In this document: one piece after another, positions 9,266-38,096 of the stretch
How positions within the stretch are numbered: position 1 is the first letter of the stretch
Layout: each line of letters begins with the position of its first letter
Notes under the pieces: generated by a model
Database searches by the model: none
Told to the model about the DNA's origin: nothing
What the model saw: the letters and a program-made list of their open reading frames with translations, nothing else
Program-made: the position numbers and the translations under genes
NCBI GenBank assembly: GCA_945863875.1
Contig: CAMBBS010000004.1
Coordinates: forward strand, 1 to 64,000
Length of the DNA: 64,000 nt
Reading direction: 5' to 3'
From: Desulfopila aestuarii DSM 18488
GTDB taxonomy: Bacteria; Desulfobacterota; Desulfobulbia; Desulfobulbales; Desulfocapsaceae

Positions 9266-12205
9266 ATGAGACATATCTTTCGACATATCTTTCGCATAAG
9301 CCGCAAGGAGTTCGGCTCCTTTTTCAGTTCGCCGATCGCCTTTATCTTCATCGGAACCTTTCTCGCCGTGAATCTGTTTATCTTTTTCTGGGTAGAAACA
9401 TTTTTCTCCCGTAATATTTCGGAAATACGACCGCTTTTTTCCTGGATGCCGATTCTTCTGATCTTTCTTTCGGCGGCGGTAACCATGCGCTCGTGGGCCG
9501 AGGAGAGGCGGGCGGGCACCCTGGAACTGCTGCTGAGCTCCCCGGTGACGCCTGCGGCACTGGTTCTCGGTAAATTTTTTGCCTGCCTGGGTCTTGCCGC
9601 TCTTTCCCTGCTGTTGACCCTGCCGATACCGATGACGGTGAGCTTTATGGGCCCTCTGGACTGGGGACCGGTTTACGCCGGCTACCTGGCCACCCTTTTC
9701 CTGGCTGCGGCGTATATTGCTGTTGGTCTTTATGTCAGCGTCAAGTCGGACAATCAGATTGTCAGCCTGATCGTCACGGTGCTCGTCTGTTCGCTCCTGT
9801 ATGTCATCGGTTCGAATACCCTGGTGTCGTTTTTCGGAAACCGTGGCGCGGAAATTCTGCAGATGCTCGGCTCCGGCTCCCGATTTACCTCGATTTCCCG
9901 TGGGGTTGTCGATCTGCGGGATCTCTACTACTATCTTGCGTTGGTGGGCATCTTCCTGACCCTGAATGTCTATGGCCTGGAGAAAATCCGCCGGGGTGAT
10001 AATCCGGTCAACGCTCATCATGCCCGCCGGCGACTGCTCTGCGTCCTGGTCATGGCCAACTTTCTTCTCGCCAATTTCTGGCTGGCCCCGGTGAACACGC
10101 TCCGCGTCGATATGACCACCGGGAACATCTATTCCATTTCGGAGACCACCCGCAGCTATCTGGCACAATTGAAAGAGCCGCTGCTTATCCGCGGTTATTT
10201 TTCAGCCCAGACGCATCCGCTTCTGGCTCCCCTGGTACCGCGCATCCGTGATCTGCTCGGCGAGTACGGCGTGGCCGGTGGAGACAAGGTTCGTGTCGAG
10301 TTTATTGATCCTCTGGAACATCCGGACCTGGAACAGGAGGCCGGTCAGAAATATGGTATCCGGCCGGTGCCCTTTCAGACCGCCAGCAGGTACCAGGCCT
10401 CGGTGACCAACTCCTATTTCGACGTCCTCATCCAGTATGGCGATCAATTCGAGACCCTGGGCTTTCGCGATCTGATCGAGGTCAAAACCGGGGGAGAGAC
10501 AGAGCTCGATGTCGAACTGCGCAACCCGGAATACGATATCACCCGGGCAATAAAAAAAGTCCTTTACAGTTATCAGGGAGGAGGGGATCTCTTTGCCGAT
10601 ATCGGCAAGCCGGTGGAATTTATCGGCTATATTTCGCCGGACAATCAGTTGCCCGAGGAACTGGATGGGTTGAAGGGAGAACTGCAGACCATTCTCGATG
10701 AGATGGAGCAGAAGGCACAAGGACTTTTCCGCAGTAAAATTGTCGATCCCGATGGTGACGGTGGGGCGGTTGCGGCAGCGATTCGGGCGGATTATGGCTT
10801 TCAGCCGATGGCGGCGAGCCTTTTCGATGAGCGTACCTTCTGGTTTTATCTGACCTTAAGGAGCGGCGAGCAGCAAGTGGAAGTGGCTTTGCCGGAAGAT
10901 TTTAGTCGGGAAAGCCTGCTGCGCGCACTTTCCGCCGGCCTGAAAAGGTTCGCTACCGGCTTTACCAGGACCGTGACCTTGCATACTCCGAAAAATCAGC
11001 CCCCCATGCCGCAATTGGGTATGTCGGGCGGGGGACCGCAGTTTGAGATTTTGCAGGACATACTGTCTGGGGAGCATGGCGTCATAGGCGCCGATCTGAC
11101 CAGCGGCCGCGTGTCCGATGACACGGATCTGCTGCTGGTCGTCGCCCCGGACTCCCTCGACGAAAAACAGCTCTTCGCCATGGATCAGTTTCTCATGCAG
11201 GGCGGCACGGTTGTTCTGGCCACGTCGCCTTTTGCCATTGATCTGGAACAACAGCTCGATGTCGCAAAGAAAGCATCGGGCCTGGAGGAGTGGCTGAAAT
11301 TTCATGGCATTTCCATCGAACAAGCAATGGTCCTTGATCCGCAAAACAGTGCTTTTCCAGTACCCGTGGAGCGGAATGTCGGCGGCTTCGCCGTGCAGGA
11401 GACCCAGCTGGTCGACTATCCTTATTTTATCGATATCCGGCCTGACGGCATGCATCAGGAGAACGGCCTGCTCAGCGGTCTGAATCAATTGACCATGAAC
11501 TGGGCCTCGCCCATAACTGTCGATATGGCCAAAAATGAGCAGCGACAGGTGACGCGGCTATTGGAAAGTTCGACAAACAGCTGGCTCTCCGACGCAACAG
11601 ATCTCCTACCGGATTTCTCCACCCAGGGGGAGCTTGGGTTTGCCCCCGTCGGCGAGACAGGCAGACATCTTCTCGGTGTCGTTGTCGAGGGACGATTCCC
11701 CTCGTTTTTTGCCGGAAAACCATCGCCCCTGCTCGTGGAGACAGATCAGCAAAACGAAAACAGAGAGGATGCAGACGCGGGGTCAGAACAGGAAATGCAG
11801 GAAGATCAGCCGCGGATCATCAGCCGCCAGATTGATAAGTCACCACCATCAAGCCGTATTGTTCTGTTCAGCTCGAATAGTTTCTTGAACGATACGGTTC
11901 TCGGCATCGGCTCCAGCGTCATGCGCAGCAGTTACCTCAACCCTGTTCAGCTGATCGCCAATACGGTCGACTGGTCCCTGGAGGATCGCGGTCTGCTGTC
12001 GATCAGAGGGCGCGGTCATTTTTCGCGCACCCTGCTACCGATGACCAGGGATCTCCAGTTGTTCTGGGAATATCTCAACTACGGCCTGGCCCTGTTCGGG
12101 CTGGTCCTGGTCTGGCTGGTGCGGCGCTCCCTGCGCAAGAGAACGCGGCTGCATTACCAACAGTATTTGACATTGGTACAGCAGGGTTTGGAGGAGAAGA
12201 GATGA
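9266..12205 (+). CDS. ABC-2 permease fused to GldG-type periplasmic domain
   Basis: At 979 residues this is a GldF-GldG fusion. The first 245 residues or so have six hydrophobic helices of an ABC-2 permease, including the typical RSWAEERRAGTLELLLSSPV segment. A further membrane helix near 255-280 is followed by a long extracytoplasmic region with the GldG-type ABC-associated fold (SETTRSYLAQLKEPLLIRGY, later DTDLLLVVAPDSL and VVLATSPF). A last membrane helix lies near residue 930-955, followed by a basic tail. GAGGAGG precedes the ATG. The stop overlaps the next gene (ATGA), implying coupled translation. Confidence 0.92.
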   Translation: MRHIFRHIFRISRKEFGSFFSSPIAFIFIGTFLAVNLFIFFWVETFFSRNISEIRPLFSWMPILLIFLSAAVTMRSWAEERRAGTLELLLSSPVTPAALVLGKFFACLGLAALSLLLTLPIPMTVSFMGPLDWGPVYAGYLATLFLAAAYIAVGLYVSVKSDNQIVSLIVTVLVCSLLYVIGSNTLVSFFGNRGAEILQMLGSGSRFTSISRGVVDLRDLYYYLALVGIFLTLNVYGLEKIRRGDNPVNAHHARRRLLCVLVMANFLLANFWLAPVNTLRVDMTTGNIYSISETTRSYLAQLKEPLLIRGYFSAQTHPLLAPLVPRIRDLLGEYGVAGGDKVRVEFIDPLEHPDLEQEAGQKYGIRPVPFQTASRYQASVTNSYFDVLIQYGDQFETLGFRDLIEVKTGGETELDVELRNPEYDITRAIKKVLYSYQGGGDLFADIGKPVEFIGYISPDNQLPEELDGLKGELQTILDEMEQKAQGLFRSKIVDPDGDGGAVAAAIRADYGFQPMAASLFDERTFWFYLTLRSGEQQVEVALPEDFSRESLLRALSAGLKRFATGFTRTVTLHTPKNQPPMPQLGMSGGGPQFEILQDILSGEHGVIGADLTSGRVSDDTDLLLVVAPDSLDEKQLFAMDQFLMQGGTVVLATSPFAIDLEQQLDVAKKASGLEEWLKFHGISIEQAMVLDPQNSAFPVPVERNVGGFAVQETQLVDYPYFIDIRPDGMHQENGLLSGLNQLTMNWASPITVDMAKNEQRQVTRLLESSTNSWLSDATDLLPDFSTQGELGFAPVGETGRHLLGVVVEGRFPSFFAGKPSPLLVETDQQNENREDADAGSEQEMQEDQPRIISRQIDKSPPSSRIVLFSSNSFLNDTVLGIGSSVMRSSYLNPVQLIANTVDWSLEDRGLLSIRGRGHFSRTLLPMTRDLQLFWEYLNYGLALFGLVLVWLVRRSLRKRTRLHYQQYLTLVQQGLEEKR

Positions 12206-23548: not shown

Positions 23549-24301
23549 ATGAAAATTGATGATTTGGAACAGATGGAAAGTGAAGATCTGCGTACCCTTT
23601 CTTCGGCTGAGCGCCGGAGGTTTTTGAAGTTTGGTCTGGCGGTCACCGGCATGTATCTCGGCGGAAGCGTCCTGTCGCTGACCTCTGCGCAAACGGTTCT
23701 TGCCGCAGGCGTCGTGCCTGAACTCGGCAAGTACGCCTACACTCCACATTACAGCATGGTTCTCAGGGAAAAACTCTGTATCGATTGTGAGCGCTGCAAA
23801 GATGCCTGTGTTAAAACCAATCATGTGCCGGCGTATGGCTTCAGAACCACTATTCTTGAAAAACGTCGGTCTCTCGGCGGTGATAATTTCGAGACAACCT
23901 TTATGCCGGTACTCTGCAATCACTGCAATCGACCACCGTGTGTGCGGGTCTGTCCGACAACGGCAACCTGGAAGGATGAGAAAACAGGCATCGTTGTTAT
24001 GAACCCCAGTCGCTGTATCGGCTGTAAAACCTGCATGACGGCATGTCCGTATAATGCCCGGTATTTTAAGGAAGAAACACGGGCGGTGGATAAATGCGAT
24101 TTCTGTTTCGAAGCAAAGTTGTCCAAGGGCGAGACGACCACCGCCTGCGTTGAAGCGTGTCCGGCTGACGTGCGTGTCTTTGGTGATCTGGCTGATCCGA
24201 AAAGCCGCGTGTATCAGCTTGTCCATTCGCCGGAAACCATGGTGTGGGTGTTGCGTCCGGAAACAGGTGCTGTGCCGAATGTGTTTTATATAAATTCATA
24301 A
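23549..24301 (+). CDS. Tat-exported four-cluster ferredoxin, NrfC/PsrB-like electron transfer subunit
   Basis: The ATG at 23549 has AAGAGG seven bases before it; a GTG two codons earlier is too close. The 250-residue protein starts with a Tat-type signal (AERRRFLKFGLAVTG, hydrophobic stretch, ending VLAAG). It then has four cysteine groups for [4Fe-4S] clusters: CIDCERCKDAC, CNHCNRPPCVRVCP, CIGCKTCMTACP, and CDFC with CVEACP. Such subunits pass electrons between NrfD-type quinone-interacting membrane proteins and periplasmic partners. A trihaem cytochrome and two NrfD genes follow, so a quinone-linked periplasmic redox complex is likely. Confidence 0.92.
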   Translation: MKIDDLEQMESEDLRTLSSAERRRFLKFGLAVTGMYLGGSVLSLTSAQTVLAAGVVPELGKYAYTPHYSMVLREKLCIDCERCKDACVKTNHVPAYGFRTTILEKRRSLGGDNFETTFMPVLCNHCNRPPCVRVCPTTATWKDEKTGIVVMNPSRCIGCKTCMTACPYNARYFKEETRAVDKCDFCFEAKLSKGETTTACVEACPADVRVFGDLADPKSRVYQLVHSPETMVWVLRPETGAVPNVFYINS

Positions 24302-24392: not shown

Positions 24393-24812
24393 ATGAAGAA
24401 GATTTTGTTATTGATGGTTGTCGGTGTTTTTCTGTTTTCCGGGGCGCTTCTTTCGGCGAGCGGCGATGTGCAGGTTGCAGATGATTATGATGAAGACACC
24501 TACGGCCCCAAAGATCCCATTATCTGGGTAAAGCCCGTCAAATCAGTTGTTTTTCATCATAAAACACACACCATGGATGCCGGTCTCGATTGTGATTCCT
24601 GTCATGACGAGCTGTTTGCCATGGAGGCTGGGGCCGCCGAGGAAAATGAGGATTTCACCATGGCGACCTTGTACGAGGGCGGCTATTGCGGCGCCTGCCA
24701 TGACGGCTCAACGGCCTTTGCCTCGAATACCCGCTGTACAACCTGCCATATCGGGGTGCGGGGGCACGCCCGCCTGCTTGGTGACGATGGTTCTGCCGCA
24801 AAAGGACATTGA
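24393..24812 (+). CDS. Trihaem cytochrome c7/c3-type periplasmic protein
   Basis: The start is taken as the ATG at 24393 (CGGAG before it), giving 139 residues. A signal peptide (KKILLLMVVGVFLFSGALLSASG) is followed by three haem-binding motifs, CDSCH, CGACH and CTTCH, and by the segment VVFHHKTHTM whose His residues fit distal ligands. This matches class III c7-type cytochromes with three haems. It lies 91 bases after the ferredoxin gene and is followed by a strong terminator, so the two form a transcription unit. Expected location: periplasm, as electron carrier or subunit of the redox complex. Confidence 0.92.
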   Translation: MKKILLLMVVGVFLFSGALLSASGDVQVADDYDEDTYGPKDPIIWVKPVKSVVFHHKTHTMDAGLDCDSCHDELFAMEAGAAEENEDFTMATLYEGGYCGACHDGSTAFASNTRCTTCHIGVRGHARLLGDDGSAAKGH

Positions 24813-24946: not shown

Positions 24947-24961
24947 GGCGCAAAATACGCC
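24947..24961. promoter_or_regulatory. Palindromic operator-like site, copy 1
   Basis: GGCGCAAAATACGCC is an inverted repeat. It matches four other 15-bp sites upstream of the two NrfD loci (consensus G[GA]CGCAAAATGCG[CT]C) and is followed by CAATGCG. Confidence 0.55.
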
Positions 24962-25120
24962 CAATGCGTTATATTTCTCTTTAAATATTTGGAAATATAG
25001 AAAATATTGTAAGTAGTTCTCCTCCCCTTCCGTCTGCTGTATCATCGACTGGAAAGTCTTTTCTTTTCTGTAGTGCAAAATAAGTTCGTTATTTCAGCAA
25101 CATGCCCTCGTTCCCAGTTG

Positions 25121-25169
25121 GACGCAAAATGCGCCTATGGTTTGACGCGGTTGTGGCGCGTATTGCGCC
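25121..25169. promoter_or_regulatory. Pair of palindromic operator-like sites upstream of the first NrfD locus
   Basis: GACGCAAAATGCGCC (25121-25135) and GGCGCGTATTGCGCC (25155-25169) lie 34 bases apart, the second followed by CAATAGGG. They are about 200 bases upstream of the small membrane protein gene. The MerR proteins encoded after each NrfD gene are obvious candidates to bind them. Confidence 0.6.
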
Positions 25170-25357
25170 CAATAGGGGAAGAGTTTCCCTTGTGTGGCTG
25201 CCTTCTCTTTCGAACTTTTTGTTCAAAATATTAATAAAAACAATAGGGTGTATTGTTCGAGGGCCATGTTCTCCATGGCTTTTGAATCATGGCATATCTC
25301 TTGCTAACTTAAAGGTAGCTTAAGGATGTTTTTGATAAAAAATAGGAGGAGGTTGTC

Positions 25358-25585
25358 ATGGCGGCTACACTGCAGAAACAAGGAATAGGTCGATCGGTTG
25401 AGAGTGTTTTTTACAGTCTCCGGATCTTGGTGGAGCAGGTCAGCGAATGGTTCTGGTTTGTCCTCTCATTTGTCCTGTTTGTCGTCCTCGGCCCCTTTAG
25501 CGCTCCGATTGCATTGATAGCCCTTGTTAAACTGGGCTTGGAGGACAATGACCATCGGGAGCCGGAATCAATAGCCGTAAAGTAA
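25358..25585 (+). CDS. Small single- or double-pass membrane protein before NrfD gene 1
   Basis: A strong TAGGAGGAGG site precedes the ATG. The 75-residue protein has a hydrophobic stretch WFWFVLSFVLFVVLGPFSAP followed by IALIALVKLGL, then an acidic tail. I recognise no family. It is 54 bases upstream of an NrfD gene, and the second NrfD gene has a tiny membrane protein in the same place. A role as small subunit or assembly factor is a reasonable guess only. Confidence 0.7.
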   Translation: MAATLQKQGIGRSVESVFYSLRILVEQVSEWFWFVLSFVLFVVLGPFSAPIALIALVKLGLEDNDHREPESIAVK

Positions 25586-25639
25586 CTGCAACGATCGTTC
25601 AATCTAATAAAACCAGTCTTAAAAAGAAGGAGATACACA

Positions 25640-26815
25640 ATGGAAGGGAATATGTCTATCACCACTGCACCGACAGCCGTCAAGTTGCCGGCGAATAAGC
25701 TGATGTGGCTGAGTCTGTTTATGATATGTATCGGGGTGGCCGCAGCAGTCTACGCGCAATGGGTAGGACATCATCACGCCTTTGCCAACACGCGGGAGAT
25801 GCCCTGGGGAATGCTTATCGGAGTGTATGCCTATTTCGCTATTATTTCCACGGGACTCTGTGTTCTGGCGGCCTTTAGCCACGCCTTTGGCGGCAATCAG
25901 ATGGCGCCTCTAGCTAATCGGATGGTCTGGCTGTCGATTATTTCGCTTCTTGGCGCTTTCACGGTGATAGGTCTGGAGATCGAAAACCCGTGGCGCATGC
26001 CTCTCGGGGTTGTCCTGTATCCCAATGTGACGTCCAATATCTGGTGGATGGGAACGCTTTACGGCATGGCTGTCGGGGTGATGTTTCTCGAGCTTTTTCT
26101 GATCATCACCAGACGCTATTCGATCGCAATTTTTCTCGGCGTTGTTGGGGCAATTACCGAGGCGCTGGCGAACAGTAATTTAGGTTCGGTCTTTGCGTCG
26201 CTTGCCTCGCGACCCTTCTGGTACGGTTCGCAGCTGCCGGTATTCTTTCTCGCCTGTGCCGTCTTGTCAGGGGCTGCGGCGATAGTGATGTTTACACATT
26301 ACAGCCATATCCTCCAGAAAAGACCGATGAGTGACGATACCTTTCGCGGCTTGCAGACCGCTGGTAAGATAATGGTTCTTATGACATTTCTCGTCACCCT
26401 CGCCACTGCATGGAAGTTTGCCAACGCCTATAGCAGCAATGACGAAATGATCATGGCGGCCAATTCGATGATCAATGGACCGCTGTCCACCAGCTTTTGG
26501 GTCTTTGAGATAGGTATCGGCCTGGTATTGCCTTGCTTTCTTCTGGTTGTCAGCCGGCTAAATTCAATGTATGCCATGTCCACTGCTGCGCTGATGATCC
26601 TGGTGGGACAGTTTTTCTCACGCTATAACCTGGTTGTCTCCGGTCAGATCGTCCCCAGTGATTATGGCCTTGTTGGTGTGCCGCAGTATCTCTCCTATAT
26701 GCCTACTGCTTCTGAATACCTTCTGGTGGTTGCCGGACTCGGCGTAGTCGGCCTGGGTTTCGTTTTGGGAGAGCGATTTCTCGATGGCATTTTCAGCGGC
26801 AAGGCCTCTCACTGA
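25640..26815 (+). CDS. NrfD/PsrC-family quinone-interacting membrane protein 1
   Basis: AAGGAG lies seven bases before the ATG. The 391-residue protein is almost entirely membrane helices (about nine or ten) with NrfD-type features such as EMPWGMLIGVYAYFAIISTG and IWWMGTLYGMAVG. These proteins bind quinol or quinone and exchange electrons with an FeS partner on the periplasmic side. The likely partner is the Tat ferredoxin encoded 1.3 kb upstream. A MerR-type regulator follows. It is clearly paralogous to the gene at 27948. Confidence 0.9.
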   Translation: MEGNMSITTAPTAVKLPANKLMWLSLFMICIGVAAAVYAQWVGHHHAFANTREMPWGMLIGVYAYFAIISTGLCVLAAFSHAFGGNQMAPLANRMVWLSIISLLGAFTVIGLEIENPWRMPLGVVLYPNVTSNIWWMGTLYGMAVGVMFLELFLIITRRYSIAIFLGVVGAITEALANSNLGSVFASLASRPFWYGSQLPVFFLACAVLSGAAAIVMFTHYSHILQKRPMSDDTFRGLQTAGKIMVLMTFLVTLATAWKFANAYSSNDEMIMAANSMINGPLSTSFWVFEIGIGLVLPCFLLVVSRLNSMYAMSTAALMILVGQFFSRYNLVVSGQIVPSDYGLVGVPQYLSYMPTASEYLLVVAGLGVVGLGFVLGERFLDGIFSGKASH

Positions 26816-26906
26816 TTGACCCGGAATTTGCCGTTATGACCGATGCTTCCGGCGCGGCGACAGAATTTCTGTTCCTCGCCGGAAGAATGACAAGGGAGAA
26901 AAAGAT

Positions 26907-27266
26907 ATGAAAGAAAATAAGGCCCTCTTCACTATAGGTACCGCGGCTGAAATGCTCGGCGTTCATCCACGTACTTTGAGAAACTATGAGGATGCCGGCC
27001 TCATCAGTCCCGCACGAAAAGGATCCTGGAGATATTACACCCTGCGTGACATCCAGTGGATTGAGTGTCTCAGGGAAATGGTGCACGAGCATGGACTCAG
27101 TATAAACTCCGTCAAAAAACTGCTCAAATACACCCCCTGCTGGAATCTTATAGATTGTCCTTTTGAAAAAAGAAGACGCTGTTCCGCCTTTTTCTCAAAT
27201 ACCTTGGTGCCCAAAAAGATTACCAGGATTGTTCCGCCGCCAATGAATGATGATATCGCTGCCTAG
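26907..27266 (+). CDS. MerR-family regulator 1
   Basis: The 119-residue protein has the MerR winged-helix start TIGTAAEMLGVHPRTLRNYEDAGLISPARKG, then HDLR-like ECLREMVHEHGLSINSVKKLLKY. The C-terminus holds the Cys pattern CWNLIDCPFEKRRRC, which could bind metal or an FeS cluster or act as a redox switch. It is shorter than metal-sensing MerR proteins and lacks a long dimerisation helix. AGGGAG precedes the ATG. It follows NrfD gene 1 and closely resembles the regulator after NrfD gene 2 (29232). Confidence 0.92.
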   Translation: MKENKALFTIGTAAEMLGVHPRTLRNYEDAGLISPARKGSWRYYTLRDIQWIECLREMVHEHGLSINSVKKLLKYTPCWNLIDCPFEKRRRCSAFFSNTLVPKKITRIVPPPMNDDIAA

Positions 27267-27475
27267 GCATTGATATCACCGCGTCTCCCCCCCCCCTCGT
27301 TCTCTGTTCTCGCCGCGTTGAATCTTTTGCTGTGCCGCGTCTTTCGCGGACTACATTCCCTTTCTGACGGTTTCGCCTCCCATCCCGCGGCACATCTGCC
27401 GACATGCTCGGTTTTTTCCGCCCTCTTTTCCTGTTTTCTGGTCGGGATCTTTTGACCACTCTCGACAATATTTAT

Positions 27476-27519
27476 GGCGCAAAATGCGTCTAGTGTAATA
27501 GGTGGACGATAAATGCGTC
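27476..27519. promoter_or_regulatory. Pair of palindromic operator-like sites upstream of the second NrfD locus
   Basis: GGCGCAAAATGCGTC (27476-27490) and GACGATAAATGCGTC (27505-27519), 29 bases apart, match the three sites at 24947-25169. The second is followed by CTATTGG, like the flank of the earlier copies. Confidence 0.6.
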
Positions 27520-27659
27520 CTATTGGAAAGGATAAAATATGAATGCCTGCTCGCCTGCGTAGAAAATAAAATACAATAAAATCAAAACTAAAGAACTTTT
27601 TTTGTGATTTTTGTGCCGTGCTGTTAAGGAACAGCTGCATATTTTCTGTGATCAATTAC

Positions 27660-27688
27660 TTGACAATTGAAATTGTAAGATGTACAGC
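27660..27688 (+). promoter_or_regulatory. Candidate promoter before the second NrfD locus
   Basis: TTGACA at 27660-27665, a 17-base spacer ending ATG, then TACAGC. It resembles the site at 23159 in layout and sequence. It lies about 85 bases before the tiny gene at 27770. Confidence 0.45.
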
Positions 27689-27769
27689 TGATTTTAGTTT
27701 TGCATGGTGAAGAGCAGGTGGGCGACCACTCGTATGATTGAATGGCCGGATACTGGAGCAGGAGGTGCT

Positions 27770-27895
27770 ATGGAAGGAATCTATTTTCTCATATTTTGGA
27801 TAGGGAGTGCAGTATTGCACACATTATACGATCTAAAAGTGAAACCGTATTTAGATACCTTTTGGAGGAATACCGGTAATTGGCCGTTTTCCTGA
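27770..27895 (+). CDS. Tiny membrane protein (41 aa) before NrfD gene 2
   Basis: An AGGAGG site sits four to five bases before the ATG at 27770. The 41-residue product, beginning MEGIYFLIFWIGSAVLHTLY, has one membrane helix and a short polar tail. It is 52 bases before NrfD gene 2, the position occupied by the 75-residue membrane protein before NrfD gene 1. No family is recognised. Confidence 0.6.
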   Translation: MEGIYFLIFWIGSAVLHTLYDLKVKPYLDTFWRNTGNWPFS

Positions 27896-27947
27896 GAAAG
27901 ATAAACATAAACATAAACCAGCTTTACTATTTTTAGAGAGGTGAAAA

Positions 27948-29141
27948 ATGAACAATGTCTTGGCAGGAATCCTTCCCCAGGAAGGAGGTCTGGAAGCGGC
28001 CGGATCCGGCAAGTACACCCTGACAATCGGGGTGCTGGCGCTGCTCACCGTTGTCGGGGTTGCCGCCGGAATCCATTCCCTGTATGTGGGCCATGAACAT
28101 ACCTTCGGGGTAAGTCGTGGTGTGCCCTGGGGCATACTGATTGCGGCCTATGTCTTTTTCGTGGTGACGTCGACGGGGCTGTGCATCGTCTCTTCGGTGG
28201 GGCATGTCTTCGGCTTTGAAAATTTCAACCCAATTGCCAAACGGGCGGTGTTTATGTCCATTGGCACTATCATTGCCGGTTTTCTGGTCATTGCCTTCGA
28301 GATTGAAAACTCCTGGCGGATGCCGGTGGGCAATGTCATCGGGGCAAATCCTACCTCCAACATCTGGTGGATGGGTACCCTGTACGGCGCCTATCTCTTC
28401 TTTATGATGATTGAGTTCGTCATGCTGCAGATGAATAATCATAAGGTCGCCACCGGTTTTGGGCTGGCCGGACTCTTGACCGGTATCGTTGCCCATTCCA
28501 ATCTTGGAGCGGTCTTTGGACTATTGAATGGTCGCGAATTCTGGCACGGCCCCTATATGCCAATCTATTTCATTACTTCGGCGGCGATGTCCGGTTGTGT
28601 GGCAATTATCTTCTTTACCTACATTGCCTATCGCTTCAATGGCTGGAAAATGAGTGAGAAGATGAAAAAATCGTTGGAAAGTGTGGCGAAGATGGGTGCT
28701 CTGATGATGGGTATCATCATCTTTTTCACCGCCTGGAAGATGATTACCGGTGTCACCGGTCAACCTCCTGGAAAATACGAGGCAATGCAGACGCTGTTAA
28801 CGGGGCAGTATGCGTGGAATTTCTGGATCGGTGAGGTAGCACTGGGCATGGTTATCCCCTTCGTCATCATTTTGGCGGTAAAAGGCCGGAATATGAATGC
28901 CCTGTTTATCGCCGCACTGGCAGGTATGGTCGGGATCTTTTTTATGCGCTACGACCTGGTGATTGTCGGCCAGCTGGTACCGGCTTACCATGGTATGGGA
29001 CTGGTTGATTACCCGGAGTTGCTCACCTATATGCCTAGCCTGCATGAAAATCTCGTTGTGCTGGGCGGTATGGCCTTTTGTGGGCTGACCTTCTTTATGG
29101 GGGAAAAATTGTTTCGCGGACATGTCTCTGAACACCACTGA
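27948..29141 (+). CDS. NrfD/PsrC-family quinone-interacting membrane protein 2
   Basis: The 397-residue protein is paralogous to the one at 25640, sharing the segments RGVPWGILIAAYVFFVVTSTG, EIENSWRMP and NIWWMGTLYGAY. It has about nine or ten membrane helices. GAGAGGTG precedes the ATG. With its own tiny membrane protein upstream and MerR regulator downstream it forms a second copy of the same module. The two modules may serve alternative forms of one quinone-reactive complex. Confidence 0.9.
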   Translation: MNNVLAGILPQEGGLEAAGSGKYTLTIGVLALLTVVGVAAGIHSLYVGHEHTFGVSRGVPWGILIAAYVFFVVTSTGLCIVSSVGHVFGFENFNPIAKRAVFMSIGTIIAGFLVIAFEIENSWRMPVGNVIGANPTSNIWWMGTLYGAYLFFMMIEFVMLQMNNHKVATGFGLAGLLTGIVAHSNLGAVFGLLNGREFWHGPYMPIYFITSAAMSGCVAIIFFTYIAYRFNGWKMSEKMKKSLESVAKMGALMMGIIIFFTAWKMITGVTGQPPGKYEAMQTLLTGQYAWNFWIGEVALGMVIPFVIILAVKGRNMNALFIAALAGMVGIFFMRYDLVIVGQLVPAYHGMGLVDYPELLTYMPSLHENLVVLGGMAFCGLTFFMGEKLFRGHVSEHH

Positions 29142-29231
29142 GCTGTGGTCTGATCCCCAATTTTTCTCCCATTGTTCGAAGTTAAATTGGGGACGACAGT
29201 TACAAATCCATGTTGCAGGAGATTACCCAGA

Positions 29232-29708
29232 GTGAAAAATAAATCCAAGGTAGAGCCGTTACGGAAAGATTTGCCTATTTACCCGATTGGCGTGGCCGCG
29301 AAATTACTCGACGTTCATCCCCGTACCCTGCGGATTTACGAAGATGAAGGCCTGATTAAACCCGGTCGTGAAGGCAACAGAAGGCTCTACTCGACAAATG
29401 ATATTACCTGGATAGGCTGTCTGCGCAGGCTCATTCATGATGAGGGCATTTCTATCGCTGGAATTAAACGGCTTTTGCGCTATGCCACCTGCCATGAAAT
29501 AGCCGACTGTCCAAAGGAAATCCACTGTACCTGTGGGGCCTTAGTGGACAAGGCTATCCCGAGAAGTCTTCGTCTGGCCGGCGATGCAGAGGCCGAAAGA
29601 AAGGCGAAGGAGCGAGATGTCGCCGCCCGAAACAAAGCACAGGATACAAAAAAAAAGAAAAAACAAAGGATCGAAAGGTGCGCTGAAAAGACGCAGGCAC
29701 CCTCCTGA
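29232..29708 (+). CDS. MerR-family regulator 2
   Basis: The GTG at 29232, ten bases after AGGAG, gives 158 residues; a TTG at 29172 is possible. Winged-helix part: PIGVAAKLLDVHPRTLRIYEDEGLI, then CLRRLIHDEGISIAGIKRLLRYATC. The Cys pattern CHEIADCPKEIHCTC matches the one in MerR regulator 1, suggesting the same signal. The tail (about 120-158) is very Lys/Arg/Glu-rich and probably disordered. A bidirectional terminator follows. Confidence 0.9.
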   Translation: MKNKSKVEPLRKDLPIYPIGVAAKLLDVHPRTLRIYEDEGLIKPGREGNRRLYSTNDITWIGCLRRLIHDEGISIAGIKRLLRYATCHEIADCPKEIHCTCGALVDKAIPRSLRLAGDAEAERKAKERDVAARNKAQDTKKKKKQRIERCAEKTQAPS

Positions 29709-29796: not shown

Positions 29797-30534
29797 CTAT
29801 TCCTCATTGTCAACGTCTGCTGCTATCATCCCTCGGGTGAACATAAGCTGGGCCAGATAGAGAAATGGCGTGTCGATAACGGCGACGATCCATTTCAAAA
29901 CATACGTGGTTATAAGAATTTGCATAAATTCGGCCTGGGGCAGCAGGCCCCAGAACGCGATAAAGGTAAAAATCACCGAGTCGAGTAACTGGCTGATCAT
30001 GGTGCTGGCGTTGTTGCGCAGCCAGAGAAATTTCATGCCTGGAAAGAGATTTTTCCAGAAATCATATGCCCAGACGTCATGCAGCTGCGATATCCCGTAG
30101 GCGACAAGAGATGCCAGAGCGATTCGAGGCAGAAGGGCAAAGATGTTCCGCAGGCTCTCCTGGATAAAATCAAACTCATTCGGCTTGAACATCAGGGCGA
30201 TATTCATGATGATGACCGTGGTGGTCAGGGAAAAGAAACCGATGAATACGGCCTTTCTTGCCGCCTTTTTGCCATAGTTTTCGGAAAGGATATCAGTGAC
30301 CAGAAAGGAAGAAGCGTAGGTTATATTGCCGAGAGTGACCCCTATCGCCAGCAGGTCGACCATTTTCAGAACCTGAATGTTGGCGAGAATAGTGGCAATG
30401 GGTATCCAGATATAGAGACCGAGTTTGCCGAAAAATCTATAGGAAAAGAGAATGGCGGCAAAATTGGCCAGGAGCAGGAGGAACCAAAGAACTTCGTTGG
30501 AAAGCGTGCCGAGATTTAGAGAAAATGTGGTCAT
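29797..30534 (-). CDS. yhhQ: Queuosine precursor transporter, YhhQ family
   Basis: This 245-residue protein has about six membrane helices and the YhhQ-type stretch ITYASSFLVTDILSENYGKKAARKAV and later SQLLDSVIFTFIAFWG. The family imports preQ0/preQ1 or related bases for queuosine modification of tRNA. It is monocistronic, between a bidirectional terminator and a structured leader. GAGG nine bases before the ATG is its likely ribosome site and forms one strand of the leader structure described below. Confidence 0.92.
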   Translation of the reverse strand: MTTFSLNLGTLSNEVLWFLLLLANFAAILFSYRFFGKLGLYIWIPIATILANIQVLKMVDLLAIGVTLGNITYASSFLVTDILSENYGKKAARKAVFIGFFSLTTTVIIMNIALMFKPNEFDFIQESLRNIFALLPRIALASLVAYGISQLHDVWAYDFWKNLFPGMKFLWLRNNASTMISQLLDSVIFTFIAFWGLLPQAEFMQILITTYVLKWIVAVIDTPFLYLAQLMFTRGMIAADVDNEE

Positions 30535-30540
30535 AATAAA

Positions 30541-30590
30541 GCCTCAGGGTTAATGAGCAACACGTTGCAGAGAGCGGAGAGGCTAACCCC
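30541..30590 (-). promoter_or_regulatory. Candidate H-type pseudoknot leader of yhhQ that can hide the ribosome site
   Basis: On the minus strand, GGGGTTA (30590-30584) can pair with TAACCCT (30552-30546), and the adjoining GCCTC (30583-30579) with GAGGC (30545-30541). The order A-B-A'-B' is a pseudoknot. A small hairpin GCAACGTGTTGC (30568-30557) sits in the long loop. GAGG in the last strand is the ribosome site. Known preQ1 riboswitches are compact pseudoknots, but this does not match the class I consensus I know. A TATAAT at 30597-30592 lies too close to be the promoter if the first strand is to be transcribed. Confidence 0.45.
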
Positions 30591-30804
30591 TATTATAAAC
30601 CAACATCGCAGATGAATCGGTTTTGATAAGGCGGGTAGCCGAGACCGCCGTCGAATAATGCCGAGAAAAGTAGCAGATGTTGTCCAAGGGTGCAAGGGTG
30701 GAACAGGAGAGACGAGGAAAAAAAATCAGTGGCTGTGGAAATACAACGCGTCAAGTGAAAGCAGTGCAAGGTGAAAAGCGGCGAGCTGTTTCGTCAGCCG
30801 ATGC

Positions 30805-32247
30805 TCAGACCAATTTTATGACGACGAGGGTGATATCATCTTCCTGCACCACAACTCCTCGAAAGGATTCGATCTCTTGGACGAGAGCTTCTTGGATTGT
30901 TCGCGCCGAAACATGCGCGTGCTCGCGGATAACCCTCTGCAGCCGTTCTGGACCGAACATCTCATCGGTTCTATTGCGCGTTTCATAGATGCCGTCGGTA
31001 CCGACAAGAATAATATCGCCGGCCAGGCAGGTCGACGTGGTGTTATCCTCAAAAATAAAGTCGTCATCTACCCCGAGTACAAGCCCCGGGCCACCGAGCT
31101 GCGAAAAGGATTGGGACGCGGCATGGAATACCACCGCCGGTTCATGGCCGGCCCGAGCCCATTTGAGCTCGGATCGTCTCGGGTTGATTTCTAAGAAAAA
31201 CATCGTCGTAAATCGGCCGGATTTTGAGCAGTCGCGGGTGACATATCTGTTGATAACCTGAAGGAGCTGGGCCGGACTCTGGTAATTGGGTACGGCTGCA
31301 GTGAGAAAGGCCCGGACGGAAATCATGAGCATCGCTGCCCCGATGCCGTGGCCGCAGGAGTCGGCTACCGCGATGCCGATCTTGTCTTCCGGGAGAAGAA
31401 AGTAGTCGTAATAATCGCCGCCGGTCTCATCACAGTAGATGGAGGTGCCGCTTATCTCAAAATTTTCATGCAGAGGGCTGTGCCGCGGGAGAAGATTTTG
31501 CTGCACCTCTTCAGCCAGTTTCAGGGAAGTAATCAATTTAAACCGATGCCGCAATCCATCGATCATATGGTTGGTATGTTCGGCGATGATGCCGAATTCG
31601 TCGTAGCTGGCAACAGGAACCTTGGCGGACAGGTTCCCCTGGCGTACCTGTTCCAGCACGCTGGTTTCATTGTCGAAAAGCAGTTTTAGATTGCGTGAGT
31701 AGGAAAAGATGAGATTGACGATCAGCACCATGAGGACAACCATGATAAAAAAAACTTCCCTGATGACCGAGAGCTGCGCCGCACGAATGGACTGGGCGTC
31801 CTGAACGGTCTGGGTCAACCATGCGATATCCCGATTAAAAACCAGAATGAGGACGAGGGATACCAGAACCGAGGTGGTCACCGCAACAAAGGTGAATTTT
31901 CGGGTCATGGGAAAAAGACGTCCGGGCGAAGATGAAAAGGCATCTTTTGCCTCTGCCAAAAGAATAACCTTTCTCTCCTGAGCCAGGGAGGAGTCGAGGC
32001 CAATGAAAAAGCCGGCGATAACGCACCCGATCATCAGCGAGGTGATACTGGACAGGGGAACATCAAAGACGATTTTATTATAGCTGTTAATGACAATACC
32101 GGCACTGCAGCATAGCCCGAAGTCGAGGATAAGAGCCCTTTTTGCTTGAGCGAGAGATGTCGCCTTCTGGACGAAGACCCGGCGCAAAAAAGGTCTGACG
32201 AGCAGGGCTGCGCCAAAGCCGACAAGAATAATTGTCCCCAGGTGCAC
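30805..32247 (-). CDS. Membrane SpoIIE/RsbU-type protein phosphatase with HAMP domain
   Basis: The 480-residue product from the GTG at 32247 has three or four membrane helices in its first 130 residues, another near 150-185, a HAMP-like linker (SVLEQVRQGNLSAKVPV) and a C-terminal PP2C-type phosphatase. Phosphatase motifs are GGDYYDYFLL, VADSCGHGIGAAML and LVGTDGIYETRN, with metal-binding Asp residues. It should dephosphorylate STAS proteins such as the one at 19105. The start is uncertain: in the same frame 90 bases upstream lies MRLFVQYTFTVLALTFYGG, separated by an in-frame TGA at 32272-32274. Confidence 0.87.
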   Translation of the reverse strand: MHLGTIILVGFGAALLVRPFLRRVFVQKATSLAQAKRALILDFGLCCSAGIVINSYNKIVFDVPLSSITSLMIGCVIAGFFIGLDSSLAQERKVILLAEAKDAFSSSPGRLFPMTRKFTFVAVTTSVLVSLVLILVFNRDIAWLTQTVQDAQSIRAAQLSVIREVFFIMVVLMVLIVNLIFSYSRNLKLLFDNETSVLEQVRQGNLSAKVPVASYDEFGIIAEHTNHMIDGLRHRFKLITSLKLAEEVQQNLLPRHSPLHENFEISGTSIYCDETGGDYYDYFLLPEDKIGIAVADSCGHGIGAAMLMISVRAFLTAAVPNYQSPAQLLQVINRYVTRDCSKSGRFTTMFFLEINPRRSELKWARAGHEPAVVFHAASQSFSQLGGPGLVLGVDDDFIFEDNTTSTCLAGDIILVGTDGIYETRNRTDEMFGPERLQRVIREHAHVSARTIQEALVQEIESFRGVVVQEDDITLVVIKLV

Positions 32248-32460: not shown

Positions 32461-34854
32461 TTAACCTCCTGTCTCGAGGATACTGGTCAGCTGATACTTT
32501 TCGATTTTTCTCCGTAAGGTATCTTTTGAGATCCCCAGTTCTTTACAGGTAAGCATTTTCTTCCACTTGTTACGTTGCAGAGAAAGTTCGATGGCACTTT
32601 TTTCAATTTCATCAAGCGAGTGTCCTTCATAGGCCGAAAGCAATGCGGCGTCCACTGGTTTTTCCTCCCCACTAAATGTTGCCGGCAGGTGTTCAAGCTG
32701 GATATAGCCGCCGGGACAGAGGATAAAAGCGTATTCGATGATGTTTTCCAACTCGCGAATATTGCCTGGATAGGTGTATTTCATTAGAAGCGAGACGACC
32801 TCATCGCTTATGCCGACAATATCTTTTTGTTTTTCCGCCCGGAATTTTTTGACGAAATGCTCCAGGAGCAGGGGAATATCTTCAAGTCTCTCACGGAGAG
32901 GAGGCAGCAGAATGTTGACCACGTTGAGACGGTAATAAAGGTCATCTCTGAATGTGCCCTGCTGGACCAGTTCGAGAAGATCTTTATTGGTGGCGGCGAT
33001 TATCCGCACGTCGGCCTGGATCGGCACGTTTGATCCCAGGGGTTCGTATACCTTCTGCTGCAGAACCCGGAGGAGTTTTACCTGCAGGGAATGGGGGATA
33101 TCGCCGATCTCGTCGAGAAAGATCGTGCCCCCTTCGGCGGCGGCAAAACGACCGATTTTGTCTTTGCGGGCGTCGGTAAAGGCCCCGGCCTTATAGCCGA
33201 AGAGCTCCGATTCCAGCAGGGTGTCCGGCAGGGCGCCGCAATTTACCACAATAAAAGGTTTGTCGTTTCGGGCCGAGGCATGGAAAATGGCACTGGCCAC
33301 CAGCTCTTTTCCGGTACCGCTTTCCCCGAGGATGAGCACATTGCTTTCACTTTTAGATATCTCCGGCATGATCTGAAATATGCGCTGCATGGCGGGACTC
33401 TTGCTGATAATCTGATCAAAGGTATATTTTTTCGACAGCTGCTGCCGCAGGCTCATCTCCACACTGAGATCACGAAAAGTCTCTACTCCGCCGAGGACGT
33501 TGCCGTCGTGGTCGACCAGCGGAGCGGCACTGATACTCACCGAGACCTTTTTCCCATTGCGGTTTTTGATGGTAATTGTTCGGCCTGCAACGGGCAGACC
33601 GCTGTAAAGGCTTTCGGCTATGGCACAGTTTTTCCCGCAGATGGACGAACAGAAGACATCGCTGCAGTAGCGGCCGATGGCCGATTCCCGGTTCCAGCCG
33701 GTGATCAGCTCGGCGGAAAGGTTGAAGGAGGTGATGCGCCACTCACGGTCCACGGTGAAAACGCCGTCGGCGACTGAATCGAGGATGAGTGCTCTCTGGA
33801 GGCGGTTGGTATTGTCTCTAAAGGACTGGACGCCCCCTAGTATATCGCCGTTATGACCGATAAAGGGCGCGGCGCTGACACTGACGGGGATGGAGTAGCC
33901 GTCTTTGCCGATCATGAAAAGTTCCTGGTCAACGAGGGTAATTTTCTGCTCCATGCAGATGCTCAAAGGGCAGCTGCGGAAATTCTTACTGGAGAGAAGG
34001 ACCTCGGAACTCAGTCGACCCAGCACCTCGGATGCGGTGTAACCGGTAATTTTTTCCGCAGCCCGGTTGAACGAGGTGATCTTGCCTTCCGCATTGACGG
34101 TAATAATGCCATCGGCGACGGCCTGAAAGATAAGTTCATACTGCAGGGTGGCGGTGATATCAGTAAAGGTTTCCACGCCGCCGATGACATTGCCGTACAT
34201 ATCGAGTATGGGCGCGGCACTCAGTTTTACCGGAACAGATCGGCCGTCTTTCGCTTCGATATAGGCCATCCGTTCCTGGACCACTGATTTTGTGTGAATG
34301 CAATCGGAAATGGCACAATTGGTCCGGCAGACATTGGCCTTGAATATTATTTTACAGCAGCTGCCGAGTACTTCCTCTTCCTTATAGCCGGTGATTTTTT
34401 CTGCGGCGGCATTAAAACTGGTAATCTGCCAGTTTTTGTCGACGGTAAATACCCCCTCGGCAATACTGTTCAGGGCAAGGCGGCTGGCGGCCAGGGGTTC
34501 AGAGAGGTCGGCAAAGCCGATAATCGCCCCGACAAGAGCTCCTTTTGTCCCGGGAATGAGGATGATTCTCACCCGTACCGCGTTTTCTTCCCCGGTGACA
34601 GGGTTACTGATCGTTAATTCAACGTCACGATGATCTTTCTTTAGACTGAGGGAAATAATATGTGAGCAGATGCCGGCAAAGCGGGGGTCTTTTGAGAAGA
34701 CGTCGCGACACTGTTTGCCGATTATGTCCTTGGGGTCCCGGTCAAGAATGATGGAACCTTTCTGGTTGCAGTTGGTAACAACCCAATTTTCGTCGACGGT
34801 AACATAGCCGCTGGCCAGAAGTTCCGACTCAGCAACAGCAGGGGAAAACGCCAT
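32461..34854 (-). CDS. Sigma-54-dependent transcriptional activator with four PAS domains
   Basis: The ATG at 34854 has GAGGAG six bases before it; the product has 797 residues. Four PAS domains occupy about 1-475, several with clusters of Cys (for example CCKIIFKANVCRTNCAISDC) that could bind iron or sense redox state. The AAA+ domain follows with Walker A GESGTGKE, the sigma-54-contacting loop GAFTDA, and Walker B TIFLDEIGD. A Fis-type helix-turn-helix ends the protein (CKELGISKDTLRRKIEKY). No receiver domain is present, so it senses its signal directly. Targets are unknown; a sigma-54 promoter lies at 39300. Confidence 0.93.
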   Translation of the reverse strand: MAFSPAVAESELLASGYVTVDENWVVTNCNQKGSIILDRDPKDIIGKQCRDVFSKDPRFAGICSHIISLSLKKDHRDVELTISNPVTGEENAVRVRIILIPGTKGALVGAIIGFADLSEPLAASRLALNSIAEGVFTVDKNWQITSFNAAAEKITGYKEEEVLGSCCKIIFKANVCRTNCAISDCIHTKSVVQERMAYIEAKDGRSVPVKLSAAPILDMYGNVIGGVETFTDITATLQYELIFQAVADGIITVNAEGKITSFNRAAEKITGYTASEVLGRLSSEVLLSSKNFRSCPLSICMEQKITLVDQELFMIGKDGYSIPVSVSAAPFIGHNGDILGGVQSFRDNTNRLQRALILDSVADGVFTVDREWRITSFNLSAELITGWNRESAIGRYCSDVFCSSICGKNCAIAESLYSGLPVAGRTITIKNRNGKKVSVSISAAPLVDHDGNVLGGVETFRDLSVEMSLRQQLSKKYTFDQIISKSPAMQRIFQIMPEISKSESNVLILGESGTGKELVASAIFHASARNDKPFIVVNCGALPDTLLESELFGYKAGAFTDARKDKIGRFAAAEGGTIFLDEIGDIPHSLQVKLLRVLQQKVYEPLGSNVPIQADVRIIAATNKDLLELVQQGTFRDDLYYRLNVVNILLPPLRERLEDIPLLLEHFVKKFRAEKQKDIVGISDEVVSLLMKYTYPGNIRELENIIEYAFILCPGGYIQLEHLPATFSGEEKPVDAALLSAYEGHSLDEIEKSAIELSLQRNKWKKMLTCKELGISKDTLRRKIEKYQLTSILETGG

Positions 34855-35154
34855 ATTCTCCTCATTGGCAGGGGTTGGTTTCAGATGCAAAAATTATTTA
34901 TTTCACTATATACTTAAACGGTTGTTCGGACAAGTCCTAGTCCATAGAGATTGGGGTGTCGAGGTAGGAAATGTATCGGACAGGACATGGGAAGATCTGT
35001 CAGGTCTCTTCGTTGTTGATTTTTATTGGAAAAAACGTGAAGATGAAGAGAAAGTTACCTGTCGGAGGTTGTGCCGTGGAAAACTATATGCTTTTTGTCC
35101 AGACGCATATGCGGCAGATCCAGGAAAGAAATTACCGCTCAACGGGGACTCTCG
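34855..35154. other. Divergent intergenic region between two regulators
   Basis: This 300-base region separates the four-PAS activator from the histidine kinase. I see no clear promoter or operator. A short frame running into the kinase gene (from 35071) lacks a ribosome site and is likely part of the leader. Confidence 0.4.
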
Positions 35155-36309
35155 ATGACCAGTGACCGCCCACCTTTGCCCGAAATGCTGGCTAAGACCG
35201 ATGGTCTAAACAGCACCTACGGCTTGCCGTCCTTACCTAAGGGGGTTGGCGCGGCCCTTTTTCACTCGAGCAAGGATCCCTTACTCGTTGTCACGCCGCA
35301 GGGCGAAATCGTCCAGGTGAATGGTGCGTTGTTGCAGGCGGCGAACAAGACCCTTGCCGAGGTGAAAGGAAAAGGGGTCTGCCAGATCATCCACGGCGGG
35401 CGCTGGCCCCATATAAAATGTCCGCTGGAAGAGTTCCTCCTGACCAGATCCAGCCGGGTCGAGGATACCAGGTTACCCGGTCTCAATGGAGAATACAGTC
35501 TGAGCGTCGTGCCGGTGGAGCAGGGGCCGAAAGGCAAGGAACTGATTCTGCTCATTGCCAGAAAACTCACCCAGGACGAGGTGCGCAAGGTTGAGTCTAT
35601 TCGTACCGCGCAACTGGCGGCTATCGGCGAGCTGGCCGCCGGCGTTGCCCATGAAGTGAACAATCCCATTAACGGCGTTATCAATTTTGCCCAATTGCTC
35701 TATGACGATAGTCCGGAAGACAGCGAACAGGCCATGATTCTGCGGCGGATCGTCCAGGAAGGAGAAAGAATCGCGGCTATTACCTACAATTTGCTCTCTT
35801 TTGCCCGGGGAAACGAAAATGAGCTGACCCTGGTCGACGTCAATGGGGTCGTTGCCGACAGCATATCTCTGGTCGAACACCAATTGAAAAATGACGGTAT
35901 TCTTCTTTCTACGGATTTTCCTTCGCCCTCGATACCGATAATCGGCAACCACATACAACTCATGCAGGTGGTGCTTAATTTGATAAGCAACAGCCGTTAT
36001 GCCCTCAATGAAAGGTATCCCGAGCCCTCGCCGGATAAAAAGATGCATTTTTCTACCACGGCTGTGGCAATTGATGGCAGGAAGTATTGCCGTCTTATCG
36101 TCAGAGATCATGGAACCGGGATACCCCAGGGGATCTTGGATAAACTCTTTGACCCGTTTTTTACCAGCAAACCGGCCGGTAAAGGCACGGGGCTTGGACT
36201 CAGCATCAGTTATGGTATTGTGAAGAATCATAACGGCTTTCTCCGTGTCGATTCGATGCTGCATAAATACACGGAAATGATTGTCGAGATTCCCGCCGTG
36301 GAGCTGTAA
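35155..36309 (+). CDS. PAS-containing soluble sensor histidine kinase (NtrB-like)
   Basis: From the ATG at 35155 the protein has 384 residues. It contains one PAS domain (about 30-140; [17 protein letters not shown] has two Cys), the phospho-acceptor helix [22 protein letters not shown], and ATPase motifs N box [14 protein letters not shown]1 DHGTGIP and G2 [13 protein letters not shown]. No membrane helix is present, so it senses a cytoplasmic signal. Its stop overlaps the start of the response regulator (TAATG), so the two form a coupled two-component pair. Confidence 0.93.
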
Positions 36310-38096
36310 TGGACATAAAGAAAGAGGATATTCATATCCTGATCGTCGACGACGAGGAAAGCATACGCATTACCTTTGAGATGTTTTTAAAAAGGGAAGG
36401 CTACGGCACAATCACCACCGCGTCAACTCTCGAAGAGGCGTTGGCGTTAATCAATGAACAGCCGTTTGATCTGATCATCAGCGACATTGTCCTTGAAGGC
36501 GCCAGCGGCACTGATCTTCTACGTTATATCAGACAAACCGGCGTGCAGTGTCCGGTGGTGATGATAACCGGCTTTCCAAATCTGGACAGTGCCGCCGAGG
36601 CGGTACGCCTTGGTGCATTTGATTACATTTCCAAACCGGTGAACAAGGAAACACTGCTGCGTTTTGTCCGCCAGGCTCTGAAACACTGGCAGCTGGCCAT
36701 GGAAAAAAGCGCCCTGCAGCGTGAAAATGAAAAATTTAGACGATACCTCGAGGTGATTTTCCGATCGGTGAGTGATGCGATCATCACCGTTAATGAAAAA
36801 TTGGAAATCATCCAGCTCAACAATACCGCCCGGCAATGGCTGGGAGAGATAGATCCGAGCGCCGTGCACAAGCTGAAGGATCTGCCGGGTGAAATGGGGC
36901 GGGCCTGTTTCCTTGATGCCGGCAAGGTCGTTAAAAATGGAGATGTCGTCAGGGAGCATCAGGTAGAATGTTATAAACCCGACGGCGCTGTCCGGATGAT
37001 CAGCCTGAACGCCGCACCAATCAGGGATGAGGTCGAAGAATTTAACGGTGCGGTGATTGTTGCTCGCGATATCACCCTCGGTCTGCCGGAAGATAAAAAA
37101 AACAAGCGGATACAGTTTCATGGGTTTATCGGCGCCAGCGATATCATGCAGGAGGTTTACCGTCTCATCGAAAATGTCGGCAGGGTTGATACGGCTGTAC
37201 TGCTGACCGGAGAATCAGGCACCGGCAAAGAGTTGGCCGCCGAAGCGCTGCATGCCGAAAGTAAAAGAAGCGACCGCCTTCTGGTCAAGGTCGATTGTGC
37301 GGCTATGCCGGAAGATTTACTGGAGAGTGAGCTTTTCGGCCACAAAAAAGGTGCGTTTACCGGGGCGGACCGTGACCGGTCCGGGAGATTGCTGCTGGCG
37401 GATAAAGGGAGCCTTCTTCTTGATGAAATCGGCGATATCTCGCCGAGAATGCAGCTGCGCCTGCTGCGCTTTCTGCAGGAAAAGACCTTTAACCCGGTGG
37501 GACAGGATCGTTTCGTCCAGGTCGATGTACGGATTATCGCCGCCACCAATGTCGATCTCAGGCAGAAGGTCAAAGAGGGTGTTTTTCGGGAAGATCTCTA
37601 TTACCGATTGAAGGTGGTCGAGATTCATCTGCCGCCTCTTCGCGAGCGACCGGAGTGCATTCCCCTGCTGGTGCACCATTTTCTGGCCAAATTTTGTGGT
37701 GAGCTGGACAAGAAGATCATTAATATTTCCGACCAGGCGATGGCCATCCTAAAGGCATATCCCTGGCCGGGTAACGTCCGGGAACTGCGGCACGTCATAG
37801 AAAGAGCCTGTGTTCTCTGCAATGGAAAAACCCTGCTGCAGAAGCATTTGTCAGAGGAACTCTTACTTGCCGCACCCGGTGCAGATTTAGCGGCCTTAGA
37901 TTGCAAAGAAATCCGCACCCCGCCGGATACGACAACCGGGAGGCCGCCGTACCCGCAGTATCAGACCCTTAAAAGTGAAGAGGCCCGGATTGTCGAGGCC
38001 TTACAGGCCGTCGGCGGTAATAAAAGCAAGGCGGCAAAACTCCTCGGTTTTGACCGGAGTACCTTGTACCGCAAGATGAAGCGCTATAAGTTTTGA
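36309..38096 (+). CDS. NtrC-type sigma-54 response regulator with extra PAS domain
   Basis: This 595-residue protein has a receiver (ILIVDDEESIR, phospho-Asp in LIISDIVLEG), a PAS domain (about 140-260), an AAA+ domain (Walker A GESGTGKE, loop GAFTGA, Walker B LLLDEIGD) and a Fis-type helix-turn-helix (NKSKAAKLLGFDRSTLYRKMKRY). An additional PAS between receiver and AAA+ is uncommon. It is the partner of the kinase encoded directly upstream. The stop codon lies inside the end sequence of a decayed IS element, so the last residues may have been altered by the insertion. Confidence 0.93.
   Translation: MDIKKEDIHILIVDDEESIRITFEMFLKREGYGTITTASTLEEALALINEQPFDLIISDIVLEGASGTDLLRYIRQTGVQCPVVMITGFPNLDSAAEAVRLGAFDYISKPVNKETLLRFVRQALKHWQLAMEKSALQRENEKFRRYLEVIFRSVSDAIITVNEKLEIIQLNNTARQWLGEIDPSAVHKLKDLPGEMGRACFLDAGKVVKNGDVVREHQVECYKPDGAVRMISLNAAPIRDEVEEFNGAVIVARDITLGLPEDKKNKRIQFHGFIGASDIMQEVYRLIENVGRVDTAVLLTGESGTGKELAAEALHAESKRSDRLLVKVDCAAMPEDLLESELFGHKKGAFTGADRDRSGRLLLADKGSLLLDEIGDISPRMQLRLLRFLQEKTFNPVGQDRFVQVDVRIIAATNVDLRQKVKEGVFREDLYYRLKVVEIHLPPLRERPECIPLLVHHFLAKFCGELDKKIINISDQAMAILKAYPWPGNVRELRHVIERACVLCNGKTLLQKHLSEELLLAAPGADLAALDCKEIRTPPDTTTGRPPYPQYQTLKSEEARIVEALQAVGGNKSKAAKLLGFDRSTLYRKMKRYKF

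Follow-up and report, generated by a model that had tools for sequence, protein, structure and literature searches.

The window considered here (the whole stretch of DNA analysed, 64,000 nucleotides from Desulfopila aestuarii) carries two tandem modules, at 25358–27266 and 27770–29708, each made up of a tiny membrane protein, an NrfD protein, and a MerR protein; this parallel arrangement had been described in an earlier sequence-only reading, and all six open reading frames were found where that reading placed them. The tiny proteins, tiny1 (25358–25585, plus strand; 75 amino acids) and tiny2 (27770–27895, plus strand; 41 amino acids), are encoded by open reading frames with a ribosome-binding site (AGGAGG in the case of tiny2), each with a single hydrophobic stretch, strongly so in tiny1, that is enough for one membrane helix; both have homologs in relatives, those of tiny1 at the equivalent place. 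NrfD1 (25640–26815, plus strand) and NrfD2 (27948–29141, plus strand), which share 38% identity, belong to the NrfD family of membrane subunits by the Pfam gathering score (90.4 and 120.1 bits, cut-off 25.8). Neither reaches the curated NCBIfam equivalogs with which it was compared: NrfD1 scores 35.4 bits for HmcC (cut-off 550), and NrfD2 scores 52.8 bits for HmcC and 41.7 bits for DsrP (cut-offs 550 and 350).

The two regulators, MerR1 (26907–27266, plus strand) and MerR2 (29232–29708, plus strand), are 45% identical across 100 amino acids and contain a MerR-type winged helix-turn-helix (HTH), with the Pfam models MerR_1 (64.9 and 65.9 bits, respectively) and MerR both above cut-off. The closest curated NCBIfam model for both is HspR (64.6 bits for MerR1 and 74.8 for MerR2), and because neither attains the equivalog cut-off of 105 bits, we refer to them as HspR-like rather than as HspR. 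Four cysteines (in MerR1, C54 and C78-x5-C84-x7-C92) are present in both and invariant across 26 homologs. A Cys pattern common to the two proteins had thus been recognized correctly, but the spacing then given, CP-x4/5-C, is replaced by C-x5-C-P-x6-C in the aligned proteins, and a fourth invariant Cys, at position 54 of MerR1, is added to the pattern. In the predicted model of MerR1, the DNA-binding half has pLDDT above 90, and its matches among solved structures are MerR-family DNA-binding domains in general; the Cys tail is poorly confident (pLDDT of approximately 50–77), and we therefore do not read Cys geometry from the model. The Cys set is shared by MerR homologs that have no NrfD module near (L095, 10806–11937, and L096, 3211–4416) and that adjoin genes resembling histidine kinase.

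Upstream of the modules lie genes for a ferredoxin-type subunit (23549–24301, plus strand), which is DsrO/NrfC-like with several 4Fe-4S motifs (Pfam Fer4_11; NCBIfam TtrB, NrfC, and DsrO matches below their cut-offs), and for a periplasmic triheme c7-type cytochrome (24393–24812, plus strand; Pfam Cytochrome_C7; NCBIfam nanowire_3heme at 76 bits, cut-off 40). Among more than 100 loci gathered from relatives, from the phylum at large, and from a named genome collection, these two genes belong to the same conserved block as the modules, and the arrangement is shared by Desulfobulbales and further Desulfobacterota, with named carriers including Desulforhopalus singaporensis, Desulfofustis glycolicus, Desulfopila aestuarii, Desulfogranum species, Desulfobulbus rhabdoformis, and D. 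elongatus. The usual order in the window's family is [NrfD]-FeS-c7, sites, tiny1-NrfD1-MerR1, sites, tiny2-NrfD2-MerR2, where the bracketed third NrfD gene is found in several relatives and is absent from the window. The analysis bears out that the modules are parallel and co-inherited, with a regulatory site common to both. One relative (L064) has two NrfD2-type genes, at 3759–4949 and 9501–10691, and since 1167 of their 1191 bases are identical, this suggests a recent duplication or gene conversion.

The sites in question are five 15-bp palindromes, three before module 1 and two before module 2. Those before module 1 are at 24947–24961 (GGCGCAAAATACGCC, the distal site), 25121–25135 (GACGCAAAATGCGCC), and 25155–25169 (GGCGCGTATTGCGCC, the proximal site), with 34 bp from the second to the third; those before module 2 are at 27476–27490 (GGCGCAAAATGCGTC) and 27505–27519 (GACGATAAATGCGTC), 29 bp apart. 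All five are real, as had been proposed, but the consensus originally given fits exactly only two of them (25121 and 27476). The better consensus is GRCGCA-N3-TGCGYC, with a 3-bp centre that is free and indeed varies freely in relatives, from which the five sites deviate by 1, 0, 1, 0, and 2 mismatches in order. The place of the distal site is filled in many relatives too, comparable sites to the fourth occur in relatives, and the fifth, which is weak alone, gains support from the paired sites of relatives.

The genome search that had been proposed as a check showed that the motif is not widespread, and whole-genome counts reject the possibility that it is common genome-wide. The free-centre dyad occurs exactly four times in the 4.69-Mb genome (the two sites here and two within open reading frames elsewhere), and with up to one mismatch at 38 places, compared with 20 for the reversed pattern; four of the 38 lie in this 2.6-kb stretch. 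The off-cluster matches that we examined in this genome (the two exact ones and three other one-mismatch ones) all overlap open reading frames. Within the window, 16 matches compare with an expectation of 8.1, the cluster itself accounting for the excess, and other weak matches (2–3 mismatches) are scattered. The original consensus, taken exactly, is confined in the 4.69-Mb genome to 25121 and 27476.

Before module 1, the palindromes stand in a regular relation to a candidate sigma-54 promoter, the exact TGGCA-N6-TTGC (−24/−12) element at 25290–25305 on the plus strand (TGGCATATCTCTTGCT). The three sites lie 343, 169, and 135 bp before this element, approximately 135–345 bp upstream of a promoter that is itself conserved, with the exact element found upstream of NrfD1 in 60 of 78 loci of relatives. 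Over the same 78 loci, the palindromes upstream of NrfD1 number 104 when up to one mismatch is tolerated and 158 when two are, compared with 0 and 6, respectively, for the reversed control; their density is 29 times that of the rest of the same loci. Adjacent palindromes in relatives are mostly 33–34 bp apart, and upstream sites are phased to the promoter: some genomes have them at −134 to −138 and −166 to −171, others at −144 to −149 and −177 to −183, two sets of positions that differ by approximately one helical turn. In their layout, the module 1 palindromes look like enhancers from which a sigma-54 activator works, and rpoN was found as well.

A candidate reader of these sites is encoded nearby at 32461–34890 on the minus strand. 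This putative sigma-54 activator (hereafter, EBP) combines PAS domains, an AAA+ sigma-54 interaction domain (Pfam Sigma54_activat, 232.8 bits, cut-off 20.2), and a C-terminal Fis-type HTH (Pfam HTH_8, 34.2 bits). C-x8-C-x3-C-like motifs are repeated in its PAS region, the last of which is kept in 15 of 15 aligned sequences. The EBP is linked to the NrfD cluster across the order and beyond, and is found in cluster-bearing genomes; it is convergent, where near, in the window's family, and other families often have it placed between the two modules. In the window, genes for a Vut_1-type transporter and a MASE10-SpoIIE phosphatase (29797–32247) separate MerR2 from the EBP; MerR2 adjoins the EBP directly in several relatives. 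The recognition helix is conserved where the sites occur and is altered at two loci (L215 and L218) that keep the promoter element and have no consensus palindromes, a coincidence that fits ownership of the sites by the EBP but is suggestive only, with a new site consensus not definable from two loci. At L215, a long inverted repeat (GCCTACGGCTTATTTTGC ... GCAAAATAAGCCGTAGGC) 184–127 bp before the sigma-54 promoter occupies the place that the palindromes have in other genomes.

The clearest indication comes from loci that have lost the EBP, with absence judged on draft genomes and by a score threshold. Among NrfD1 loci that bear MerR, a palindrome with at most one mismatch is found at 40 of 51 with an EBP and at 0 of 6 without (L277, L279, L282, L283, L301, and L320; Fisher p = 0.0003, relatedness ignored), and the −24/−12 element at 48 of 51 and 1 of 6, respectively (Fisher p = 0.00008, relatedness again ignored). 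The EBP-less loci are spread over several branches of the NrfD1 tree. In most of them, FeS, c7, and NrfD1 are also fused into one operon, which leaves room for promoter loss as the cause rather than the consequence. In a separate clade (L246, L248, L249, L251, and L256), the EBP, MerR, tiny1, and the sites are all missing; at four of these loci (all except L251), the cluster is reduced to FeS-c7-NrfD1, and a second FeS-NrfD-c7 operon lies a few kilobases off on the opposite strand. Taking sites, promoter, and gene linkage together, we consider it highly likely that the palindromes belong to the EBP and that it works on the sigma-54 promoter. Several observations weigh against this reading: 11 of the 51 EBP-bearing loci have no palindrome within one mismatch, L282 retains the −24/−12 element with no EBP detected, and the sigma-54 contact loop of the EBP (residue 569) reads GAFTDA rather than GAFTGA, a single substitution. 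The EBP of L285 also has GAFTDA.

Module 2 is preceded by a different type of promoter. An exact −24/−12 element, as expected of a sigma-54 promoter, was found before module 2 in none of 54 loci; instead, a sigma-70-type promoter, TTGACA-N17-TACAGC, lies at 27660–27688 on the plus strand, and TTGACA-N17 recurs in 51 of the 54 loci. Overlapping its −35 is an HspR-like dyad at 27659–27680 (CTTGACAAT-TGAA-ATTGTAAGA), a candidate MerR operator whose general form is CTTGACAAT-N4-ATTGTCAAG, with a spacer conserved across module 2 promoters (38 loci shown). We lean toward the MerR proteins as the owners of this second dyad. The main rival, which we regard as appreciably less probable but still a serious contender, is that the dyad is no more than a strong sigma-70 promoter or another repressor's site, with MerR acting through something else, such as its own partner protein or a site that this analysis did not find. 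The −35 hexamer makes up one half of the dyad, which fits this rival and weighs against ownership by MerR; so does the lack of a good dyad at several MerR-only loci, where scores were mostly at chance level. A further point against MerR is a spacing 1 bp longer than that of the HspR operator (CTTGAGT-N7-ACTCAAG; PMC6102357). Against the rival, spacer positions 13–18 carry approximately 1–1.4 bits over the 38 loci, the dyad is perfect in some lineages (L207 and L211), and a like dyad recurs at a fixed distance, 151–156 bp before EBP-less FeS-c7-NrfD1-MerR1 operons (L084, L277, L279, and L320), and was not found before the operons of the MerR-less clade. These recurring dyads have 3–4 mismatches in 18 positions, a score reached by approximately 2% of random 400-bp stretches; L301, also EBP-less and MerR1-bearing, has no dyad.

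Two further candidates for reading the palindromes have to be set against the EBP at 32461. The first is some other protein, encoded elsewhere or, for example, the response-regulator-type sigma-54 activator at 36309–38096, which with a histidine kinase gene adjoins the EBP (35071–38096), is likewise close to the modules, and also has a Fis-type HTH. Close homologs of this histidine kinase and activator pair were found with the cluster in one relative only (L064, with a second copy, L081), whereas the palindromes persist across the order and are tracked by the EBP at 32461; we consider such a reader very improbable, and the activator at 36309, not being conserved with the cluster, is disfavoured. 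The second is the proposal of the sequence-only reading that the palindromes are sites of the MerR proteins, which would thereby control both modules. MerR genes with a common Cys set do sit inside both modules, and palindromes precede both, even module 2 with no sigma-54 promoter; but no palindrome is left at the six EBP-less loci that keep MerR, and the sites, phased to −24/−12, lie far upstream of the promoters. MerR-family operators are normally within the promoter, a position unlike that of these enhancer-like sites. Both the loss pattern and the position thus disfavour MerR as palindrome owner, and MerR-bearing operons are accompanied by a dyad of another, HspR-like type, so that MerR control through the palindromes is not borne out, and we give it even less credence than the preceding candidate.

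Simple action of the EBP does not explain why the fourth and fifth palindromes precede module 2, where there is no −24/−12 element. Repression or activation of the sigma-70-type promoter is one possible role; others are action on module 1 from afar and service to an undetected promoter. More specifically, a single EBP might, from the same enhancer sites, activate the sigma-54 promoter of module 1 and modulate the sigma-70-type promoter of module 2 with a Cys-bearing HspR-like MerR on its −35; we think this unlikely, but if true, one redox signal would select, by way of two promoter types, which of two alternative NrfD membrane subunits is made.

Since the EBP fits the palindromes while MerR more plausibly reads the second dyad, we propose that the locus probably represents a two-regulator circuit over a DsrOP/NrfCD-like quinone–cytochrome cluster. 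The Fis-type HTH of the EBP would bind the GRCGCA-N3-TGCGYC palindromes, and from the three module 1 sites the protein would loop to sigma-54 RNA polymerase at 25290–25305 to turn on tiny1-NrfD1-MerR1. The MerR proteins would bind the dyad over the −35 of module 2 and adjust how strongly tiny2-NrfD2-MerR2 is expressed, the simplest mode being repression that a redox or metal signal lifts, with the Cys residues as presumptive sensors of redox state or metal. The products, together with the ferredoxin-type subunit and the triheme cytochrome, would form or vary a DsrOP/NrfCD-like complex that carries electrons between menaquinone and periplasmic cytochromes, although for this quinone–cytochrome function we regard the case as evenly balanced. 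Built from comparative sequence data, the proposal supplies a testable control circuit, with DNA sites named for two regulators, for an electron-transfer cluster that is conserved in sulfate reducers, and corrects a natural misreading, as a palindrome beside a MerR gene need not belong to MerR. If the Cys sets of the EBP and of MerR sense redox state or metal, the cluster may show how a choice is made between alternative quinone-linked membrane subunits.

The general kind of system is already known: sigma-54 regulons under an EBP, with linked targets and more than one site upstream, including those of one-component PAS activators, have been reconstructed in Clostridiales (PMC6615313) and in Desulfovibrio vulgaris (PMC4641369). 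The literature searched yielded no description of the motif, of the target cluster, of the NrfD-MerR pair, or of a Cys-bearing HspR-like MerR as partner in such a system, which is weak evidence with most subscription journals lying outside it; the text of PMC4641369 contains neither this motif nor this target. As in PAS-EBP regulons, a PAS-AAA+-Fis HTH activator is encoded by a gene adjoining its putative target, and several inverted repeats lie 100–250 bp upstream of a TGGCAT-N5-TTGCT promoter; unlike them, the present system has the 15-bp GRCGCA-N3-TGCGYC site, an NrfD/FeS/c7 target, and sites before a sigma-70-type promoter as well. The MerR proteins resemble HspR and its HAIR operator in their best curated match and in a candidate dyad with CTTGA/TCAAG ends, and differ in scoring below 105 bits, in their four invariant cysteines, in a dyad one base longer, and in their association with NrfD modules instead of chaperones. 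In its protein set, the cluster comes closest to DsrOP/NrfCD modules, above all to the dsrOhPh-tetrahaem locus of cable bacteria with its TMH1 (PMC13047784), which also combines a ferredoxin subunit, an NrfD subunit, a small periplasmic multihaem cytochrome, and a single-helix small protein; electron transfer between menaquinone and periplasmic cytochromes has been proposed for DsrOP/NrfCD modules (PMC13047784). Compared with both DsrOP/NrfCD and dsrOhPh, the cluster described here is set apart by its triheme c7-type cytochrome, by the extra NrfD modules that each come with a MerR, and by its putative control by an EBP.
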